A stretch of DNA of 64,000 nt from the NCBI RefSeq assembly GCF_023703775.1, contig NZ_CP098514.1, positions 620,001 to 684,000 on the forward strand, given 5' to 3'. This document shows, piece by piece, positions 20,872 to 60,640 of this stretch; position 1 is the stretch's first letter; the number at the start of each line of letters is the position of its first letter. The notes below the pieces were generated by a model. The model was given only the letters and a program-made list of their open reading frames with translations, searched no databases and had not been told where the DNA came from. This DNA is from Haloplanus sp. GDY1 (GTDB lineage Archaea > Halobacteriota > Halobacteria > Halobacteriales > Haloferacaceae). Made by a program: the position numbers and the translations under genes.

Positions 20872-21732
20872 TCAGTCGTACTCGTAGAAGCCCTGGCCCG
20901 TCTTCCGGCCGAGGTCGCCGGCGTCGACCTTCCGCTTGAGGAGGTAGGGCGGCTTGTAGCGGTCGCCGAGTTCCTCGTGGAGCGTCTGGCTGGCGTCGAG
21001 ACAGACGTCGAGGCCGATGTGATCCGCGAGTTCGAGCGGCCCCATCGGGACGTTCGTCCCGAGTTTCAGTCCCGAGTCCATGTCGGCCTTCGAGGCGACG
21101 CCCTCGTCGTAGGCGCGGATGCCCTCGTTGATCCACGGCATCAGCACGCGGTTGACGACGAAGCCGGGCTTGTCGTCGGACTCCCAGGTCGTCTTGCCGA
21201 AGTCCTCGGCGAGGGCGTGCGAGAGGTCGACGGTCGCGTCGCTGGTCTTCTCGCCGACGACGAGTTCCAGACCCTCCATGATCGGTGCCGGGTTCATGAA
21301 GTGGAGGCCGACGACGAGTTCCGGCCGGTCGGTCGCCGACGCGATGGTCGTGATGGAGAGCGTGGAGGTGTTGGTCGCGAGCACCACGTCGTCGTCGACG
21401 GCGGCATCGAGGTCAGCGAAGACGTCCTGCTTGATCTCCATGTTCTCGACGGCGGCCTCGACGACGTAGTCGCAGGCCGCGAGGTCGTCGAGGTCGGTCG
21501 TTCCGGAGATGCGGGAAACGGCGGCGTCGGCCTCCTCCCGTGTCAGTTCGTCCTTCTCGACGAACCGGGAGAGGCTGTCGTCGATGCGGTCGAAGCCGTC
21601 CGCGACCAGGTCGTCCTCGATGTCGCGCATCACCACGTCGTACCCGGCGGTGGCGGCGACCTGTGCGATGCCGCTGCCCATCGTCCCGGCGCCGACGACC
21701 CCGACGGTGTCGATGTCGCTGAGTTCTCGCAT
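20872..21732 (-). CDS. 3-hydroxyacyl-CoA dehydrogenase (3-hydroxybutyryl-CoA type)
   Basis: A 286-residue NAD-dependent enzyme of beta-oxidation or butanoate metabolism. The N-terminal Rossmann motif is [29 protein letters not shown] and HFMNPAPIM provide the catalytic His; the C-terminal dimerisation domain ([20 protein letters not shown]) ends with the typical [12 protein letters not shown]. Length and ending fit the family. ATG 21730-21732 is preferred over a longer frame because [14 protein letters not shown] starts the fold. Confidence 0.95.
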
Positions 21733-21850
21733 TGGGAGGTCGTGGGCACGGCAAGGTTGTAAGGCTAGCGAACGGGGCAGTGCCGGCGGCCGACGCCCCG
21801 ATCCCACCATTTATGAGGTGGTGATACACGCGTGACAGTAGGACCGAACC

Positions 21851-23434
21851 ATGGGACCGGACGACCACGACCGGATTCCGGCGGCGGTGCCGCCGCTTCC
21901 GGTGTCCGAGTTCGACTTCGCGGCGCTGGAACTGGGGGAGCGCATCGGCACCGGTGGGGACGCGGACGTCTACCGGGCGACCGTCGAGGGTGGTGAAACG
22001 GTCGCCGTCAAGCAACCGCGCTTCGAGGGGACGATTCAGGAGCGGGCCATCGAGAAGTTCGCGAACGAGGCCGAAACCTGGGACCGTCTCGACGACCACG
22101 ACAACGTCGTGACGGTGTACGGCTGGGGGACGGAGCCGCTCCCGTGGCTGGCCCTCGAGTTCATGGACGGCGGGACGCTCGCGGGGCGACTGGGGGATAT
22201 CGACCTGCCCGAGGCGCTGTGGCTCGCCGGCCGCGTCGCCGAGGGGGTCCGGCACGGCCACCGTCACGGCGTCGCCCACCTCGACCTCAAACCGACCAAC
22301 CTCCTCCTCCGGGAGACGGGACCGGGAACCTGGGACTACCCGAAGGTGAGCGACTGGGGACTCGCCAAACTCCTGCTCCGACACTCCAACAGCGTGGAGG
22401 GGCTGTCCCCCACCTACGCCGCGCCCGAACAGTTCGATTCGGAGACGTTCGGGAGCGCCGACGATCTGACCGACGTCTACCAACTCGGGGCGGTGACCTA
22501 CGCGCTCCTGACGGGCGAGCCGCCGTTCACGGGCTCCGCGGCGGCGGTGATGCGGCGCGTCCTGCAGGACACGCCGGAGCCGCCGTCGGCTGTCGCCTCG
22601 AGTCTGCCGCCGGCGGTCGACGAGGTGGTCATGCCAGCGCTGGCGAAACGGAAGGCCGACCGCTACGAGGGCGTCCTCCCGTTCCGGAAGGCGCTGGACC
22701 GGCTGTTCGAGCGGATCGTCGCCGGCGCGGGTGGGAGCGCTGCGGGTGCGGCCGCCGCGCCGTCCAACGACCCCTTCGCCAGCGCCGCGTCGGCCGCGGC
22801 CGGCGGCCGTGAATCGTCGGCCGACGGGTCGACGGCGACGGAGCGTGATGCCGACGACGGCGACGACGGACTCGTGACTCGCCGTCGGGCGCTGGGCGTC
22901 CTCGGCGCGGGCGTCGTCGGCGCCGGCGGGTGGCTGGCGACGACCGAACTCGGTGGCGACCGGGCGAACGCGGCGGGGGTGCCGGCGGACGACACGGCGA
23001 CGCCGGAGCCGACGGCGACGCCAGAGCCGACGGCGACGCCCACGACCACGGCGCCGGGCATTTCGAGCGAGGAACTCGACGAGGCCATGGTTGAACTCGT
23101 CGAAGCGGACGCGACGATCACCGTCGGTCCCGGCGGCAGTCTCCAGTTCGAGCCGGCGAACATGGCCATCTCGGTGGACGACGTGGTCGAGTGGGTGTTC
23201 GACAGCGGCGGTCACAACGTCTCCGGCCACCCCGAGGCCCACCCGGACGTGTCGATCCCGGCGGGGGCGGAGCCGTTCGCGAGCTACGACCACTCGGGCG
23301 ACGACGTGAACCACGTCGCACTCCGAGAGGCCGGGGACAGCTACAAACACCTGTTCGAGGAGCCGGGCGACTACACCTACGTCTGTGTGCCTCACGCCGC
23401 CTCGGGGATGATCGGCCAGATAACCGTCCGCTGA
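21851..23434 (+). CDS. Ser/Thr protein kinase fused to a secreted halocyanin-like blue-copper domain
   Basis: A 527-residue fusion. Residues 25-290 form a Hanks-type kinase: glycine loop GTGGDADVY (33-41), Lys54 in VAVK, a Glu in ANEAETW, catalytic HLDLKPTN with Asp145 and Asn150, DWG at 168-170 and APE at 191-193, so it looks active. After an Ala/Gly/Ser linker, LVTRRRALGVLGAGVVGAGG (341-360) is a twin-arginine-like signal/anchor helix. A TPEPTATPEPTATPTT stalk follows. Residues 415-527 form a plastocyanin-like domain with all four copper ligands: His455, Cys512, His515 and Met520. Topology: kinase in the cytoplasm, cupredoxin outside. It likely signals redox or copper state; upstream and downstream genes are divergent or unrelated. 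Confidence 0.9.
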   Translation: MGPDDHDRIPAAVPPLPVSEFDFAALELGERIGTGGDADVYRATVEGGETVAVKQPRFEGTIQERAIEKFANEAETWDRLDDHDNVVTVYGWGTEPLPWLALEFMDGGTLAGRLGDIDLPEALWLAGRVAEGVRHGHRHGVAHLDLKPTNLLLRETGPGTWDYPKVSDWGLAKLLLRHSNSVEGLSPTYAAPEQFDSETFGSADDLTDVYQLGAVTYALLTGEPPFTGSAAAVMRRVLQDTPEPPSAVASSLPPAVDEVVMPALAKRKADRYEGVLPFRKALDRLFERIVAGAGGSAAGAAAAPSNDPFASAASAAAGGRESSADGSTATERDADDGDDGLVTRRRALGVLGAGVVGAGGWLATTELGGDRANAAGVPADDTATPEPTATPEPTATPTTTAPGISSEELDEAMVELVEADATITVGPGGSLQFEPANMAISVDDVVEWVFDSGGHNVSGHPEAHPDVSIPAGAEPFASYDHSGDDVNHVALREAGDSYKHLFEEPGDYTYVCVPHAASGMIGQITVR

Positions 23435-23513: not shown

Positions 23514-24326
23514 ATGATCCCCGGTGCTGACTCCGCGATCACCCGCGACGGCAAGGCACTGATCCTCGCGTACGACCACGGACTCGAACACGGCCCGGTC
23601 GACTTCGAGCCGGTGCCGGAGACGACCGACCCCGCGACGGTGTTCGACGTGGCGACCCACGACGCCGTGACGGCCGTCGCCGTCCAGAAGGGCGTCGCCG
23701 AGGCGTACTACCCCTCCTACGAGGACGACGTGACGCTGCTGGCGAAGCTCAACGGTACGAGCAACCTCTGGATGGGGGAGCCCGACTCGTCGGTCAACTG
23801 GTCGGTCGACTACGCGGCCGACCTCGGCGCGGACGCCATCGGCTTCACCGTCTACGGCGGTTCGAACCACGAGGTCGAGATGTTCGAGGAGTTCCGCGAC
23901 GCCCAGGAGGCGGCCCGCGAACACGACATGGGCGTCGTGATGTGGTCCTACCCCCGCGGGCAGGGACTGAAGGACGACACGAGCCCGGACACCATCGCCT
24001 ACGCCGCCCGACTCGGCCTCGAACTCGGCGCCGACATCGCGAAGGTGAAGTATCCCGGCTCGGCCGACGCGATGAACTGGGCCGTCCGGAGCGCGGGCGA
24101 CATGAAGGTCGTCATGAGCGGCGGGTCGAAGACCAGCGACGAGGCGTTCCTCTCGACGGTCCGCGAGGCGATGGACGCCGGCGCGAACGGGCTGGCCGTC
24201 GGGCGCAACGTCTTCCAGCGGCAGAACCCCGAGGCGATCCTCGATGGACTCGAAGCCGTCATCTTCGACGACGCGTCCGTCGACGAGGCCCTCGCCGCCA
24301 CCGGCGGGATCGAAGCCAGCGACTGA
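23514..24326 (+). CDS. fba: Fructose-bisphosphate aldolase, archaeal class I (DhnA type)
   Basis: A 270-residue TIM barrel that cleaves or forms fructose-1,6-bisphosphate. MIPGADSAI is followed by the family signature [11 protein letters not shown]. The Schiff-base lysine is in KVKYPGS (Lys177, with Lys179 nearby), and the phosphate-binding loop is VMSGGSKT and [10 protein letters not shown]. It shares a stop/start overlap (TGATG) with the FBPase gene downstream, forming a gluconeogenic unit. A TTTATG box lies ~30 bases upstream. Confidence 0.96.
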
Positions 24327-49867: not shown

Positions 49868-51787
49868 ATGACGTCGGGGGATACGCGGACGTGGCAGGTG
49901 GCGGCGGCGACGTGTACGCTCCTCTTGCTGGGCGCGTCGCTCGGGGCCTTCGCGGTCGACCTCGGATCGGCTCGTCCCGACCCGGTGGCCTACGGGGAGA
50001 CGGTGAAACTCGGCGTCGCGTCCGAGGCCGAACGGGTGGCCGAACACCGCGGCGCCTCCGTCCCCCGCGTCGAGGTGTTCTACTCGCAGTATCAGTACGT
50101 GATCGGCTACGCGGGTGTCGCCGAGGCCGTCGCGGCGCTCGACGACCCCGGACGGGAGCGGCAGTTCGGCTACCCCCTCGCGGTCTACGTCTCGGACTAC
50201 GCGGGACGGTCGCCGCGCTGTGCCGACGACGGCACCCTGCGGACGGCGACGAACCCGGACTGGGTGTCGGTGACCGACGCCCGGTTCGTCGTCGGGAGCG
50301 ACGCGCAGGTCGCCGGGAATCCGGTGGTCGTCCCGTTCTCGACGGCCGCGGACGCGGTCGCCTTCGCCGACGGCTGCGGCGGGCGGGTCGTCGACTGGGA
50401 CGGACTCCGTCGCGATCCGCCGCCGGCGACCGCCGCGGCCGGCGTGCGGGCGACGGTCGACGACCGCCGGGATTCGGCCGATCGCCGGGCGGCGGCCGCG
50501 CGGGAGTTGCTCGACCGCGAGGTGTCGGTCGTGGTGGGGCGGGACGCGCCGACGATCCGAGCGGGGATCGAGGCGGCACCGCCGAACACGACCGTCGTCG
50601 TCCCACCGGGTCGCTACGCCGAACGCGTCGTGGTGAACCGGTCGCTCACTCTCCGTGGTCGGGGCGCGACGCTCGACGGCGGCGGGAACGGGACGGTCGT
50701 CGACGTGAGGGCAGACGACGTGGCGGTGACCGGATTCACGATCCGCGGCGTCGGCAACGCGACCCGAGCGAACGGGAGCGCCGAGGGGAGCGACGACTGG
50801 GACGCCCGGATTCAGCGCGGCTACGGCGCCGGCGACGCGGGCGTCGCCGCGACGAACGTCTCCCGGCTGTACGTCCGGAACGTGACGATCCACACGCCGG
50901 CGAACGGCGTCCGCCTCCGCCGCGTCCCGGGTGCGGTCGTCGAGGGGCTGACCGTCTACGGCTCCGCCGAGTGGCTCGACGGGTTCATGGGCGTCGTCGC
51001 GATGCACGACCCGGTCGTCGTCCAGGACTCGCGCGTCCAGGGGGGCCGCGACGGCGTCTACCTCCACCGCGCGGCGGGCACCGTCGTCCGGAACAACACC
51101 TTCCTCGATCAGCGATTCGGCGTCCACCTGATGTACACGTCGGATACGCTGATCGCCGACAACGTGGCACGCGGCCAGGCGTCGAGTGGCGTGATCGTCA
51201 TGACGCGCCCGTCGGGCAACGCCATCGTCGGCAACGACGTGCGCGACGCCAGCGGCGGCATCTTCGTCGGCGGCGCGGATAGCTACGTCGCGGACAACGT
51301 GGTCGCCGACACCGACCGGGGGCTCGTGACCTACGCGACGAGGACGACGTTCACGGGCAACGTGGCCTACGACAACGCGGTGGGATTCGCCGCCTCGACG
51401 GTGGTTCCCTCGAACCGGGTGTACGGCAACGACTTCGTGGCGAACGACCGACACGCGACGGCGGGGCCGGGGCCGCTCCGGATCTTCACCCACGAGGGCC
51501 GCGGGAACTACTGGGAGGGCGCCTACGACACGACCCTCGGCGAGAGCCGGACGCTCGACCGGGCGTACTCGCCGACCGACCCGCTGGACCGTCGACTCCA
51601 CCGGACCGACGCGGCGATGACGCTGAGTGCGTCGCCCACGATCAGGGGAGTTCGCGCGCTCCGCGGCACCACGCCCGGCTTCCGGAAGGCGAGCATCGTC
51701 GACACGGCGCCGCTGGCCCGTCCGGCGAACCCGGAACTGCTCGCTCGCGCCCGCAACGGGAGCGACCCGCAGGGGGTGGAGGCGTGA
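49868..51787 (+). CDS. nosD: NosD-like copper-maturation protein with N-terminal NosL-like domain
   Basis: A 639-residue secreted protein. After an N-terminal signal helix (WQVAAATCTLLLLGASLGAF), residues 40-190 resemble NosL: DARFVVGSDAQVAGNPVVVP then ADAVAFADGCGGRVVDWDGL parallels the stand-alone NosL at 53931. The Cys pair of NosL is missing. Residues 215-560 are a right-handed parallel beta-helix with CASH-type repeats (VRNVTIHTPANGVRLRRV, NNTFLDQRFGVHLMYTSDTL), as in NosD, which with NosF and NosY helps insert copper into nitrous-oxide reductase. The gene overlaps nosF by four bases. Confidence 0.88.
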   Translation: MTSGDTRTWQVAAATCTLLLLGASLGAFAVDLGSARPDPVAYGETVKLGVASEAERVAEHRGASVPRVEVFYSQYQYVIGYAGVAEAVAALDDPGRERQFGYPLAVYVSDYAGRSPRCADDGTLRTATNPDWVSVTDARFVVGSDAQVAGNPVVVPFSTAADAVAFADGCGGRVVDWDGLRRDPPPATAAAGVRATVDDRRDSADRRAAAARELLDREVSVVVGRDAPTIRAGIEAAPPNTTVVVPPGRYAERVVVNRSLTLRGRGATLDGGGNGTVVDVRADDVAVTGFTIRGVGNATRANGSAEGSDDWDARIQRGYGAGDAGVAATNVSRLYVRNVTIHTPANGVRLRRVPGAVVEGLTVYGSAEWLDGFMGVVAMHDPVVVQDSRVQGGRDGVYLHRAAGTVVRNNTFLDQRFGVHLMYTSDTLIADNVARGQASSGVIVMTRPSGNAIVGNDVRDASGGIFVGGADSYVADNVVADTDRGLVTYATRTTFTGNVAYDNAVGFAASTVVPSNRVYGNDFVANDRHATAGPGPLRIFTHEGRGNYWEGAYDTTLGESRTLDRAYSPTDPLDRRLHRTDAAMTLSASPTIRGVRALRGTTPGFRKASIVDTAPLARPANPELLARARNGSDPQGVEA

Positions 51788-52509
51788 CGGGGGAGTCGTC
51801 GCTGCGCGCGACGGACGTGACCCGGACCTTCGGCGACGTGACCGCGCTCTCGGACGTGTCGCTGTCGGTGCCGGCGGGGTCGGTCGTCGCCCTGATCGGG
51901 CCGAACGGCTCGGGGAAGACGACGCTTCTCCGGGTCCTCGCGGGGCTGCTCGACCCGACGGCTGGAGCGGTCGACTACGAGGGCCCGCCGGCGACTCGAC
52001 CGCTCGGCTACCTGCCACAGGAGCCGACCTTCCGGCCGGGCTTCACGGCCATGGAGACGGCGTCGTTCTACGCTCGCCTCGTCGACGACGACCCGGCGGC
52101 CCTGCTCGACCGGGTCGGGCTCTCGGCGGTGGCGGACCGGCGCGTCGAAGCGCTCTCGGGGGGGATGACGCGGCTGCTCGGCATCGCGCAGGCGCTCGCC
52201 GGCGACCCTCCGGTTCTCGCCCTCGACGAGCCAGCGAGCGGCCTCGATCCGGGGATGAGCCGACGGGTGTTCGGCGTCGTGGAGGGGCTGGCCGAGGCGG
52301 ACCACGCCGTCGTCGTCACCTCCCACGACCTCCCCCTGGTCGAGCGGACGGCCGATCGGATCGTCGTCCTCGACCGGGGGGCGGTCGTCGCGGCCGGATC
52401 GCCCGCCGAACTCCGAGAGCGGACCGGCGGCCCGCTCCACGAGACGTTCACGGCGCTCGTCGGCGGCGACGAGGGCTCCGTCGCCGTTCGCACGCGGGGG
52501 GACGAATGA
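51784..52509 (+). CDS. nosF: NosF-like ABC ATPase
   Basis: A 241-residue ATPase: Walker A GPNGSGKTT, Q-loop LPQEPTFRPG, signature ALSGGMTRLLG, Walker B VLALDEPASGLDP, H-loop TSHDLPLVE. It powers the NosDFY complex. The start is GTG at 51784 within the nosD stop; the stop overlaps the nosY ATG (ATGA). Confidence 0.92.
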   Translation: MTGESSLRATDVTRTFGDVTALSDVSLSVPAGSVVALIGPNGSGKTTLLRVLAGLLDPTAGAVDYEGPPATRPLGYLPQEPTFRPGFTAMETASFYARLVDDDPAALLDRVGLSAVADRRVEALSGGMTRLLGIAQALAGDPPVLALDEPASGLDPGMSRRVFGVVEGLAEADHAVVVTSHDLPLVERTADRIVVLDRGAVVAAGSPAELRERTGGPLHETFTALVGGDEGSVAVRTRGDE

Positions 52510-58024: not shown

Positions 58025-59025
58025 CAGTACGACTCCCCCGCCTCGATCGGCCCGCTGAACGCCGAGTAGAGGACGGCGAAGTAGGCGAACACGAGGGGGA
58101 GCAGGAGCGCCGCCCCGATCGACATGAGGTTGAGCGAGAGCGTCGGGACGATGGCCGCCTCGACGGTCAGTCCCGTCGCGGGGTCGACCGACGGGTAGAG
58201 CAGAACCGCGATCACGGCGACGAGCGCGAAGACCAGTCCGGCCGCGGCGACGAAGGCGGCGTAGTACCGATCCCGGTGTGTCGCGACGGCGTAGCCGGCC
58301 GCGAGGAGGAGCGTGGCGGCGACCAGTCCCAGCACGGCCGGCGACCGCATCGCCGCCCGCAGGTCCGGCGCGAGGGCGTAGAGCGCGGCGAGCGTGACGA
58401 CCACCAGCACCAGGTACGCCACCAGCGCGCGGTGGCCGTCGGCCCGCAGGTCCGCCCGCAGGTCGCCGCGGGTCTTCAGGCGCAGGAACGCCACCCCGTC
58501 GACGACGGTGAGCGCGACGACGGTCAGGCCGGCGAGGAGGCCCGCGGGCGTGACGAGCGCCGTCGCCCCGAGCAGCCAGTTCGCGGTGAACATCCCGAGG
58601 AGGAAGGGAGTGGCGACGCTGCCCGCGACGAAGGAACGCCCCCACCACCTCTGCCACCGCTCGTCGTGGCGCTGTTCGTACATCTCGGGCGCGAGGCCGC
58701 GGAGGATCAGTCCCCCGAGGATGGCGAACATGAGCAGGTAGTGGCGACTGAACAGATTGGCGTAGACGGCCGGGAAGGCGGCGAACATGACGCCGCCGAA
58801 CACCACCAGCCACACCTCGTTGCCGTCCCAGAAGGGGCCGATGGCCGCGAGGAACTGCTCGCGGATCTCCTCGTCCTCGCGGGTCGCGAAGAGCGCGCCG
58901 ACGCCGAAGTCGAAGCCGTCGAGAAAGAGGAAGGTCCCGAAGATGAAAAACAGGAGCGCGAACCAGAGGTCGGGGAGCGGCAGGCCGAACAGCGGGCCGC
59001 TCGACAGCGCGTCGACGCTAGTCAT
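58024..59025 (-). CDS. cydB: Cytochrome bd quinol oxidase subunit II
   Basis: A 333-residue membrane protein with eight to nine helices. PLPDLWFALLFFIFGTFLFL DGFDFGVGALF is the family N-terminus, and NEVWLVVFGGVMFAAFPAVY follows. It forms the bd oxidase with CydA, reducing oxygen with menaquinol or ubiquinol-like quinones. It overlaps cydA by eight bases. Confidence 0.94.
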   Translation of the reverse strand: MTSVDALSSGPLFGLPLPDLWFALLFFIFGTFLFLDGFDFGVGALFATREDEEIREQFLAAIGPFWDGNEVWLVVFGGVMFAAFPAVYANLFSRHYLLMFAILGGLILRGLAPEMYEQRHDERWQRWWGRSFVAGSVATPFLLGMFTANWLLGATALVTPAGLLAGLTVVALTVVDGVAFLRLKTRGDLRADLRADGHRALVAYLVLVVVTLAALYALAPDLRAAMRSPAVLGLVAATLLLAAGYAVATHRDRYYAAFVAAAGLVFALVAVIAVLLYPSVDPATGLTVEAAIVPTLSLNLMSIGAALLLPLVFAYFAVLYSAFSGPIEAGESY

Positions 59026-60439
59026 CGGCGGTCGCTCCCGTCGACGACTCCGTTCGGTCGGTCGCCCGGAGGTCCGCACCGTCGGGCGGCCCGGCGCGGA
59101 CGATGCGCGTGACCACGTAGCCATAGAGGGCGAGCAAGCCGAGATACAGCCCCGCGAAGCCGACGAGCGTCGCCGTCGCCTCGGCGCCGGTGAGGCCGGG
59201 CGAGACGCCCGCACTCGTCTTCATGACCCCCTGGATGATCCACGGCTGGCGACCGACCTCGGTGACGATCCACCCCACCTCGACGGCGAAGACGCCGAGC
59301 GGTGCCGAGGCCATCAGCGCCTTGTGCAACAGGTCGTCTTCGAGGAGTTCGCCCCTGTACCAGCGGTAGCCGCCCCAGAACGCGAGGAGGACGAACCAGA
59401 ACCCGAGCGCGACCATCATGCGGAACGCCCAGAAGACGATCGCGACGGGTGGCTGTGGTCCCTCGAACTCCTCTAGGCCGCGGATGGTCGCCTGTGGGTT
59501 CCCGCCGCTCGCCAGCCACGACGCCCCGCCCGGGATGCCGATGCCGAATATCTCCTTCGCTCGCGGGTCGACCAGGTTCTCGACGCTCGTCGGGACGGCG
59601 ACGATGTACTCGGGGACATAACTGTCCGTCTCCCAGACGGCCTCCATCGCCGCGAACTTCTGGGGCTGGGTCTCGTAGACGTGGCGTGCGTACATGTCGC
59701 CGTGGATCACCTGCAGCGGCGCCGTGATCAGGAGGGCGACGAGGCCGATCTTGAGCGTCGTCTCCCAGAACTCGGCGTGTTCGACCGGGCGATCCCAGAC
59801 GTGATGCCGGAAGACGAAGTAGGCGCTCAGCCCGCAGATGGCGAGGGCGACGGACTCGACGGCCGCGTTCTGCATGTGGACGAACATCCAGAAAAATCGG
59901 GGGTTGAGGTAGGCGGCGACCGGGTCGGTCAGGTGGACCACCCGGTGACCGTTCTCGACGACCATCTCGAACCCCCGCGGGGTCTGCATCCACGAGTTGG
60001 CGATCAGGATCCAGACGGCCGAGAGCCAGGTGCCGAGGCCGACGGCGACGGCCGACACCATGTAGAGCGCGTCGCCGACGCGCTCCCGGCCGTAGACGAA
60101 GACCCCGAGGAAGGTGGCCTCCAGCATGAACGCCATCATCCCCTCGACGGCGAGTGGGCCGCCGAACAGCGGCCCGGCCGTCGTCGCGAAGGCGGCGAAG
60201 TTGGTGCCGAACTCGAACTCGAGGACGATGCCGGTCACCGTCCCGACGACGAAACTCACGGCGAAGATGCGGGTCCAGAACCGACGCAACTGCTCGTATA
60301 TCGGCTTCCCCGTCCGGATGTCCTTCCAGGTGAAGTAGACGAGAAAGGGCGCGAGCCCCATGCTCACCACGGGGAAGACGATGTGGACGATGGTCGTGAG
60401 GGCGAACTGGAGCCGGCTTGCAGTGACTGGGTCTACCAT
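59018..60439 (-). CDS. cydA: Cytochrome bd quinol oxidase subunit I
   Basis: A 473-residue membrane protein. The heme ligands are expected at His in TTIVHIVFPVVSM (19), His in WMFVHMQNAAVES (~184) and Met in WAFRMMVALGF. The Q-loop between helices 6 and 7 is short, as in many archaeal and Gram-positive bd oxidases. MVDPVTASRLQFALTTIVHI is the true start (ATG 60437-60439). Menaquinone genes elsewhere in the window fit menaquinol as donor. Confidence 0.95.
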   Translation of the reverse strand: MVDPVTASRLQFALTTIVHIVFPVVSMGLAPFLVYFTWKDIRTGKPIYEQLRRFWTRIFAVSFVVGTVTGIVLEFEFGTNFAAFATTAGPLFGGPLAVEGMMAFMLEATFLGVFVYGRERVGDALYMVSAVAVGLGTWLSAVWILIANSWMQTPRGFEMVVENGHRVVHLTDPVAAYLNPRFFWMFVHMQNAAVESVALAICGLSAYFVFRHHVWDRPVEHAEFWETTLKIGLVALLITAPLQVIHGDMYARHVYETQPQKFAAMEAVWETDSYVPEYIVAVPTSVENLVDPRAKEIFGIGIPGGASWLASGGNPQATIRGLEEFEGPQPPVAIVFWAFRMMVALGFWFVLLAFWGGYRWYRGELLEDDLLHKALMASAPLGVFAVEVGWIVTEVGRQPWIIQGVMKTSAGVSPGLTGAEATATLVGFAGLYLGLLALYGYVVTRIVRAGPPDGADLRATDRTESSTGATADD

Positions 60440-60640
60440 GTGCGGGGTCGGCGTCTCACCCACCCAATTGAACGTCCTGTCTATTCGTTGTTGGGTCGGT
60501 CGGCGCGTCCTCGGTGGTTCTCGCGACCCGACGGAGTTCAACCGCTCCATCGTTCCCAGAGTCCGGGAATCCTCGGGACTCCCGGCCGATACTGTATTTC
60601 GACCGACACAATTACTACCGTCGGGACCGTCGGCTCGCGT

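Follow-up and report, generated by a model that had tools for sequence, protein, structure and literature searches.

The window analysed here is the whole 64,000-nucleotide stretch of Haloplanus sp. GDY1 (contig NZ_CP098514.1, positions 620,001 to 684,000). On its forward strand, an open reading frame at 21851-23434 (stop codon included) starts with ATG and runs over 527 codons without a single internal stop. It would encode a 527-residue Ser/Thr receptor-like kinase with a C-terminal blue-copper domain, and has a full-length orthologue in a congener, G007. From the N-terminus, the protein is made up of a kinase domain, a low-complexity linker, a twin-arginine (RR) anchor, a Thr/Pro-rich linker and a plastocyanin-fold domain. 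The gene is flanked by a divergent 3-hydroxyacyl-CoA dehydrogenase gene (Pfam 3HCDH; 20872..21810, minus strand), which synteny in congeners marks as the conserved neighbour of an insertion site, and on the other side of that site by a DeoC/FBA-type aldolase gene (Pfam DeoC; 23514..24326, plus strand), placed likewise by synteny and carrying its own TATA-like element upstream.

No operon of the fusion with copper or respiration genes was found, its neighbours being the dehydrogenase and the aldolase. The first-pass annotation had drawn attention to other copper-handling and respiratory proteins in the window. These are real, but they lie 26-36 kb away and show no linkage with the fusion. They comprise NosL/NosD-like genes (49868-51787) and cytochrome bd (59018-60550). 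At 49868-51787, on the plus strand, NosL-like and NosD-like domains occur in one protein, and the gene overlaps by 4 bases that of an ABC transporter ATPase (51784-52509, plus strand); together, they form a putative nos-type copper-insertion cassette. The minus-strand gene at 59018-60550 encodes cytochrome bd oxidase subunit I (PF01654, 2e-140).

The fusion recurs in G007, an independent assembly, as an open frame with the same 1-527 architecture and 69% identity, and it is again located between the 3HCDH and FBA-type aldolase genes. In 10 further congeners, these two genes are found near each other with no intervening kinase, separated by as little as 91 bases in G011 and by up to 4.7 kb in G009, where the gap contains transposase-like ORFs. 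The window fusion is not a chimera, because a congener encodes this protein in the corresponding conserved position; an assembly or annotation join of two genes, which the first-pass annotation had considered, is ruled out by this orthologue and its synteny. A chance ORF is ruled out by profile matches and selection. Indeed, comparison of the window and G007 genes (NG86) gave dN 0.16 and dS 0.78 for the kinase, dN 0.50 and dS 0.87 for the first linker, and dN 0.24 and dS 0.48 for the copper domain, where the values are blurred by the apparent gene conversion in G007. Judging from these rates, the kinase halves of both fusions are under purifying selection. As far as sequence can tell, 21851-23434 is a real gene for a membrane kinase with a blue-copper outer domain, both intact and recurrent.

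The kinase domain (residues 21-290; 21911..22720, plus strand) is of the Hanks/PknB-like type. Pfam Pkinase (PF00069) matches residues 27-271 with an E-value of 2.6e-32 and 112.7 bits, for a gathering score of 31.7. A residue check found the catalytic set complete, with K54 (the VAIK lysine), D145, N150 and D168; Lys54, Asp145 and Asp168 are thus exactly where the first-pass annotation had numbered them. Further motifs are a GTGGDADV loop, E73, HLDLKPTN, DWG (containing D168) and APE. HLD replaces HRD and DWG replaces DFG, and both HLDLKPTN and DWG are common to most relatives. The HRD arginine is absent from the window kinase and most of its family, which have HLD, as well as from G085 and G507, which have HHD. 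The window protein would therefore be classed as a non-RD kinase that is otherwise complete, the missing arginine being compatible with both activity and family membership. Because of the HLD motif, however, activation by the RD-kinase scheme alone is not possible. The AlphaFold2 model has pLDDT values mostly above 90, and Foldseek finds its closest solved fold in Mycobacterium tuberculosis PknB (E 9e-19). The model for PASTA receptor kinases of the PknB/Stk1 type (NF033483) gives 168.2 bits, from the kinase part only, and this is well below its cut-off of 450.

Behind the kinase, a fast-evolving linker rich in Ala, Gly, Ser and Asp (residues 291-342; 22721..22876, plus strand) has 45% amino-acid identity with that of G007. 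It leads to the anchor TRRRALGVLGAGVVGAGGWLATT (residues 343-365; 22877..22945, plus strand), a Gly-rich shared motif which is the best hydrophobic stretch of the protein, with a Kyte-Doolittle mean of 1.39 over 19 residues. A Thr/Pro-rich linker follows (residues 366-415; 22946..23095, plus strand), presumably extracellular. AlphaFold2 places both linkers at low confidence, with pLDDT below 50 (over most of the first one), and they are predicted to be disordered, so that a transmission path through the protein is not evident. The description of the anchor as Tat-like in the first-pass annotation stands in one respect: a twin-arginine, TRRRALGVLGAGVVGAGGWLA, precedes a weakly hydrophobic stretch, and [STN]RR is kept in all fusions. 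It falls short in another, as the motif sits at residue 343, behind the kinase, and not at the N-terminus. An internal Tat signal behind a 340-residue cytoplasmic domain is unusual, and this weighs against the reading that we favour below. The anchor region of the window protein has no lipobox Cys, and the stand-alone blue-copper protein L049 has the lipobox LAGC.

Twin-arginine segments obey a positive-inside arrangement, which puts the side N-terminal to the anchor in the cytoplasm. From the RR type of the anchor, the kinase would be cytoplasmic and the copper domain extracellular. With small variations, all five blue-copper fusions, a LamG kinase and a kinase with a periplasmic binding protein have the pattern [STN]RR..LG..G.G..G.GG ahead of their exported part. 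Since halocyanin-like, LamG and periplasmic-binding domains all follow this one anchor, the slot behind it takes exported binding modules. Two other views of the anchor were considered. Inheritance along with the halocyanin was dropped in favour of the kinase lineage, given that this anchor is shared by the LamG paralogue L055 and that the one of the stand-alone gene is different and comes with a lipobox. Release by signal peptidase between ANA and AG, immediately after the anchor, is weakly supported, the site being SGA in G007 and missing in G085 and in the LamG paralogue.

The C-terminal domain (residues 416-527; 23096..23431, plus strand) has a plastocyanin fold according to Pfam, AlphaFold2 and Foldseek. 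Pfam Copper-bind (PF00127) matches residues 426-526 (E 5.4e-14, 52.8 bits, gathering score 21.2); the domain modelled alone reaches a mean pLDDT of 96.9, and Foldseek relates it to pseudoazurin/plastocyanin (E 1.9e-9). The type-1 ligand set His, Cys, His, Met is complete, and its numbering in the first-pass annotation is exact. Three of the putative ligands are invariant among 47 aligned cupredoxins, namely His455 (23213..23215, plus strand; column H40), Cys512 (23384..23386, plus strand; column C97) and His515 (23393..23395, plus strand; column H100). The putative axial ligand Met520 (23408..23410, plus strand; column M105) is at least 90% conserved and is replaced by Asp in G507. On the other hand, the halocyanin label given earlier to this domain did not survive: it scores 49.5 bits with the halocyanin model TIGR03102, for a curated cut-off of 93.8. 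Its stand-alone sister likewise fails (49.1 bits), and the fusions of G085 (262) and G522 (240) pass. By this model, the window domain and its sister are best classed as plastocyanin-family blue-copper proteins rather than halocyanins; from its family, the sister would be an electron carrier. In the copper-domain tree, the window domain has a branch of 0.26, compared with 0.02-0.13 for stand-alone genes. The organism's own genome has 13 blue-copper domain matches. Two blue-copper matches within one genome (G000:C1:1023458-1023787 and 1181264-1181593) have equal scores of 141.2 bits and are possibly duplicated genes.

The kinase half belongs to a modular family that is expanded in haloarchaea. 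The own genome contains 12 of its members, the other eleven being 44-60% identical to the window kinase over the kinase part, and one PP2C phosphatase. N- or C-terminal partners in the family include PQQ-type repeats or propellers, LamG, FtsZ, HEAT-like repeats and a DnaK-like ATPase; Laminin_G_3, FtsZ and, in G007, Peripla_BP_6 are confirmed by Pfam, and the PQQ, HEAT and DnaK assignments were read by eye. The closest paralogue of the window kinase (L055:2932-4917, plus strand, own genome) has the same anchor and a C-terminal LamG/concanavalin-like domain. In G007, L119:1393-3882 (plus strand) combines a family kinase, the same RR anchor and a periplasmic binding protein of the branched-chain amino-acid type (PF13458, 8e-65); a frameshift near residue 175 interrupts its kinase part, so that it may be decaying. 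With LamG and periplasmic binding domains in the equivalent position of other members, following an anchor of the same type, the window protein is most naturally interpreted as a receptor.

Other members illustrate the range of the family. A gene of the own genome (L048:2134-4089, minus strand; C1 about 372103-374058) joins a kinase to a complete C-terminal FtsZ/tubulin GTPase (PF00091 1.6e-32, FtsZ_C 3.3e-19), a candidate kinase-cytoskeleton fusion. An Hsp70/DnaK-like ATPase, identified by eye, is N-terminal to a family kinase in L062:208-3858 (plus strand, own genome) and in L128:2013-5138 (minus strand, G085). A 1991-residue frame in G028 (L126:1-5973, plus strand) has a kinase-like segment, a coiled coil and, by eye, a UvrD-like helicase. 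Two tandem family kinase domains share one frame in G001 (L115:3414-6989, minus strand); the second has HLGLHPSN at the catalytic loop, lacks the catalytic Asp and looks inactive. Finally, the region 1466816-1499141 of C1 in G085 (L128, L129) looks like a signalling island, with several family kinases, a PP2C-like gene recognised by eye (L129:1858-2580) and transposase-like genes.

A search for the same fusion elsewhere, as suggested by the first-pass annotation, was fruitful: besides G007, kinase/blue-copper fusions occur in G085, G507 and G522. The fusion is nevertheless rare, with at least five carriers among about 520 distinct Halobacteriales genomes, a lower bound as the widest searches scored the best few candidates per genome. 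In G085, which belongs to another family of the order, a kinase is followed by two copper domains (L129:9066-11144). The G507 protein contains a kinase, a helix-hairpin-helix, the anchor and one copper domain having Asp for the axial Met. The G522 protein (L164:1242-3191, plus strand) has an RR anchor, two halocyanin domains and a pseudokinase devoid of the VAIK Lys and of the catalytic-loop Asn. Loss of kinase residues, which the first-pass annotation had raised as a concern for the homologues, is thus confined among fusions to the distant G522, and the full ligand set is kept in four of the five fusion proteins. Because G507 has no axial Met and the G522 kinase is degenerate, neither half is always used canonically.

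Trees of both halves argue for repeated assembly. In the tree of copper domains, those of the window and G007 fall among stand-alone genes of their own genus, the fused G085 domains sit beside the G085 stand-alone gene (83% identical), and the G522 domains are placed elsewhere. Forcing the window, G007, G085 and G507 copper domains into one clade costs 228 log-likelihood units (p-AU 2.7e-7). The 38-row kinase tree joins the LamG kinase to those of the window and G007, and pairs the G085 kinase with that of G507; one clade for the fusion kinases is rejected (p-AU 3.0e-5). A single origin of all fusions is therefore rejected by AU tests on both halves, with the caveats that later domain swaps could mimic the result for the copper half alone and that the groups were defined once an exploratory tree had been inspected. 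On this evidence the pairing arose at least twice in haloarchaea, and G522 would be a further case.

The G007 fusion carries the trace of a more recent event. Over about 400 bases, its copper domain and adjoining linker have 95% DNA identity with the G007 stand-alone gene; the tract starts in the linker past the anchor and ends at the last codon. Over that extracellular tract, the window and G007 fusions have only 71% amino-acid identity. The simplest reading is that the extracellular part alone underwent recent gene conversion or replacement by the stand-alone gene. Such an exchange suggests that the fused domain and the working carrier can replace each other.

Several known systems resemble the window protein in part. 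As in PASTA kinases of the PknB/StkP type, an N-terminal cytoplasmic Hanks kinase, a low-complexity juxtamembrane linker, one anchor and an extracellular C-terminal sensor follow each other; in contrast, the window protein has no PASTA repeats, carries a blue-copper domain where the sensor would be, has HLD for HRD and carries a twin-arginine anchor. A 2005 survey described bacterial Ser/Thr kinases joined to periplasmic solute-binding or ANF-receptor domains in Streptomyces and Nostoc (PMC1262709). They share with the present family the combination of a kinase and an exported binding domain (here L119 of G007), whereas the present family is haloarchaeal and has an RR anchor; that survey makes no mention of copper or plastocyanin. 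On the copper side, halocyanin is a haloarchaeal one-electron carrier, also found as a halocyanin/CbaD fusion (PMC8305020), and NirK-plastocyanin fusions occur in Halobacteria (PMC11237513). Halocyanin and related carriers have the same plastocyanin fold and type-1 ligand set, but the window domain is fused to a kinase, has no lipobox and stays below the TIGR03102 cut-off. The CbaD and NirK proteins are haloarchaeal blue-copper fusions as well, with a redox enzyme as the partner, where the window protein has a signalling kinase. CusS-type histidine kinases are membrane kinases that report extracytoplasmic copper (PMC10100754), and they differ from the window protein in phosphotransfer class, being histidine and not Ser/Thr kinases. 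The sensor of CusS binds Cu(I)/Ag(I) and is not known to be a cupredoxin. The main text of a survey of archaeal two-component systems (PMC5847659) contains neither copper nor cupredoxin nor plastocyanin. Full-text searches of open-access papers, assessed from titles, abstracts and counts, yielded no account in which a blue-copper domain acts as a kinase sensor. Receptor Ser/Thr kinases and blue-copper carriers are each known; their pairing as a kinase with a blue-copper outer domain appears to be new in the open-access literature searched.

We favour, with confidence that is no better than even, the view that the protein is a single-pass receptor Ser/Thr kinase displaying a copy of the cell's blue-copper carrier as bait, and reading its redox state, copper loading or docking. 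An uncleaved internal signal-anchor of the RR Tat type would leave the N-terminus inside and the C-terminus outside, with the PknB-like kinase in the cytoplasm and the folded blue-copper domain outside the membrane. The latter would have been copied from the cell's small blue-copper carrier and grafted onto the kinase, and hence should be recognised and electronically addressed by the carrier's partners, such as oxidases, dehydrogenases or copper donors. A change in the redox state, copper occupancy or docking of the domain would be passed through the anchor by altered receptor association and so activate or silence the kinase, probably via dimerisation of kinase domains as in PknB. For PknB-type kinases, passage of the signal by altered receptor association has been proposed. 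The PP2C of the genome would reverse the phosphorylation; in G085, a gene recognised by eye as PP2C-like is located about 6.5 kb from the fusion. The most likely single input is the redox state, which would be determined by the electron flux in the carrier pool. A narrower proposal, tentative and on balance doubtful, is that this transmembrane kinase gauges the redox poise of the extracytoplasmic carrier pool by means of a decoy carrier copy; it would then represent a new receptor class, made repeatedly, in which the decoy was kept in step with the carrier by gene conversion in at least one lineage. A strict redox role is weakened by several features: G507 has lost the axial ligand, G522 has a pseudokinase, copper genes are not linked to the fusion and the linkers are predicted to be disordered.

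The same architecture can be read in other ways. Metal loading (apo versus holo) rather than electron flow might switch the domain, the kinase then reporting extracellular copper or copper delivery. The four ligands all kept in the window and G007 proteins would fit such a copper-availability sensor, as would the dependence of haloarchaea on many blue-copper proteins, reflected in the 13 matches, and the presence of NosL/NosD-like copper genes within the same window; against this, G507 has no axial ligand and copper efflux genes are not linked to the fusion. Moreover, type-1 sites are generally pre-organised and bind copper very tightly, which suits a carrier more than a reversible sensor. We consider this explanation unlikely. 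Somewhat less credence still is due to a module for binding proteins or surfaces, docking to the S-layer or to a partner oxidoreductase, with incidental copper and a kinase that senses contact or crowding. LamG or solute-binding domains do stand behind the same anchor in other receptors of the family, the axial Met is lost in G507 and the window copy has evolved more rapidly than stand-alone genes, yet ligands are complete in four of five fusion proteins, and the recent overwriting of the G007 domain by the stand-alone gene amounts to a restored carrier identity, not to drift.

That the fusion only tethers an electron carrier to the membrane, the kinase being a passenger that signals independently or is vestigial, appears improbable. 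There are precedents in haloarchaeal fusions of blue-copper domains with redox partners (halocyanin/cbaD, PMC8305020; NirK-plastocyanin, PMC11237513), and the kinase half of G522 is a pseudokinase. However, between window and G007 the kinase is the most constrained of the three parts compared, with a dN of 0.16 against 0.24 for the copper domain and 0.50 for the linker, the stand-alone proteins already possess a Tat signal and a lipobox anchor, and the anchor of the fusion is that of the kinase lineage, common to the LamG kinase. An artefact joining a kinase gene to a halocyanin gene has a vanishingly small probability, in view of the single open frame, of the same fusion with synteny in an independent assembly and of the additional fusions elsewhere.

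The kinases with interchangeable exported modules behind one RR anchor look like a haloarchaeal receptor system that is uncatalogued in the open-access literature searched. The recurrent pairing with blue-copper domains suggests that haloarchaea have a means of sensing extracellular copper or electron flow and of responding with protein phosphorylation in the cytoplasm. Such a link is otherwise little understood in archaea and, if the receptor reading is true, the fusion would couple protein phosphorylation in archaea directly to electron flow or copper status on the extracytoplasmic side.
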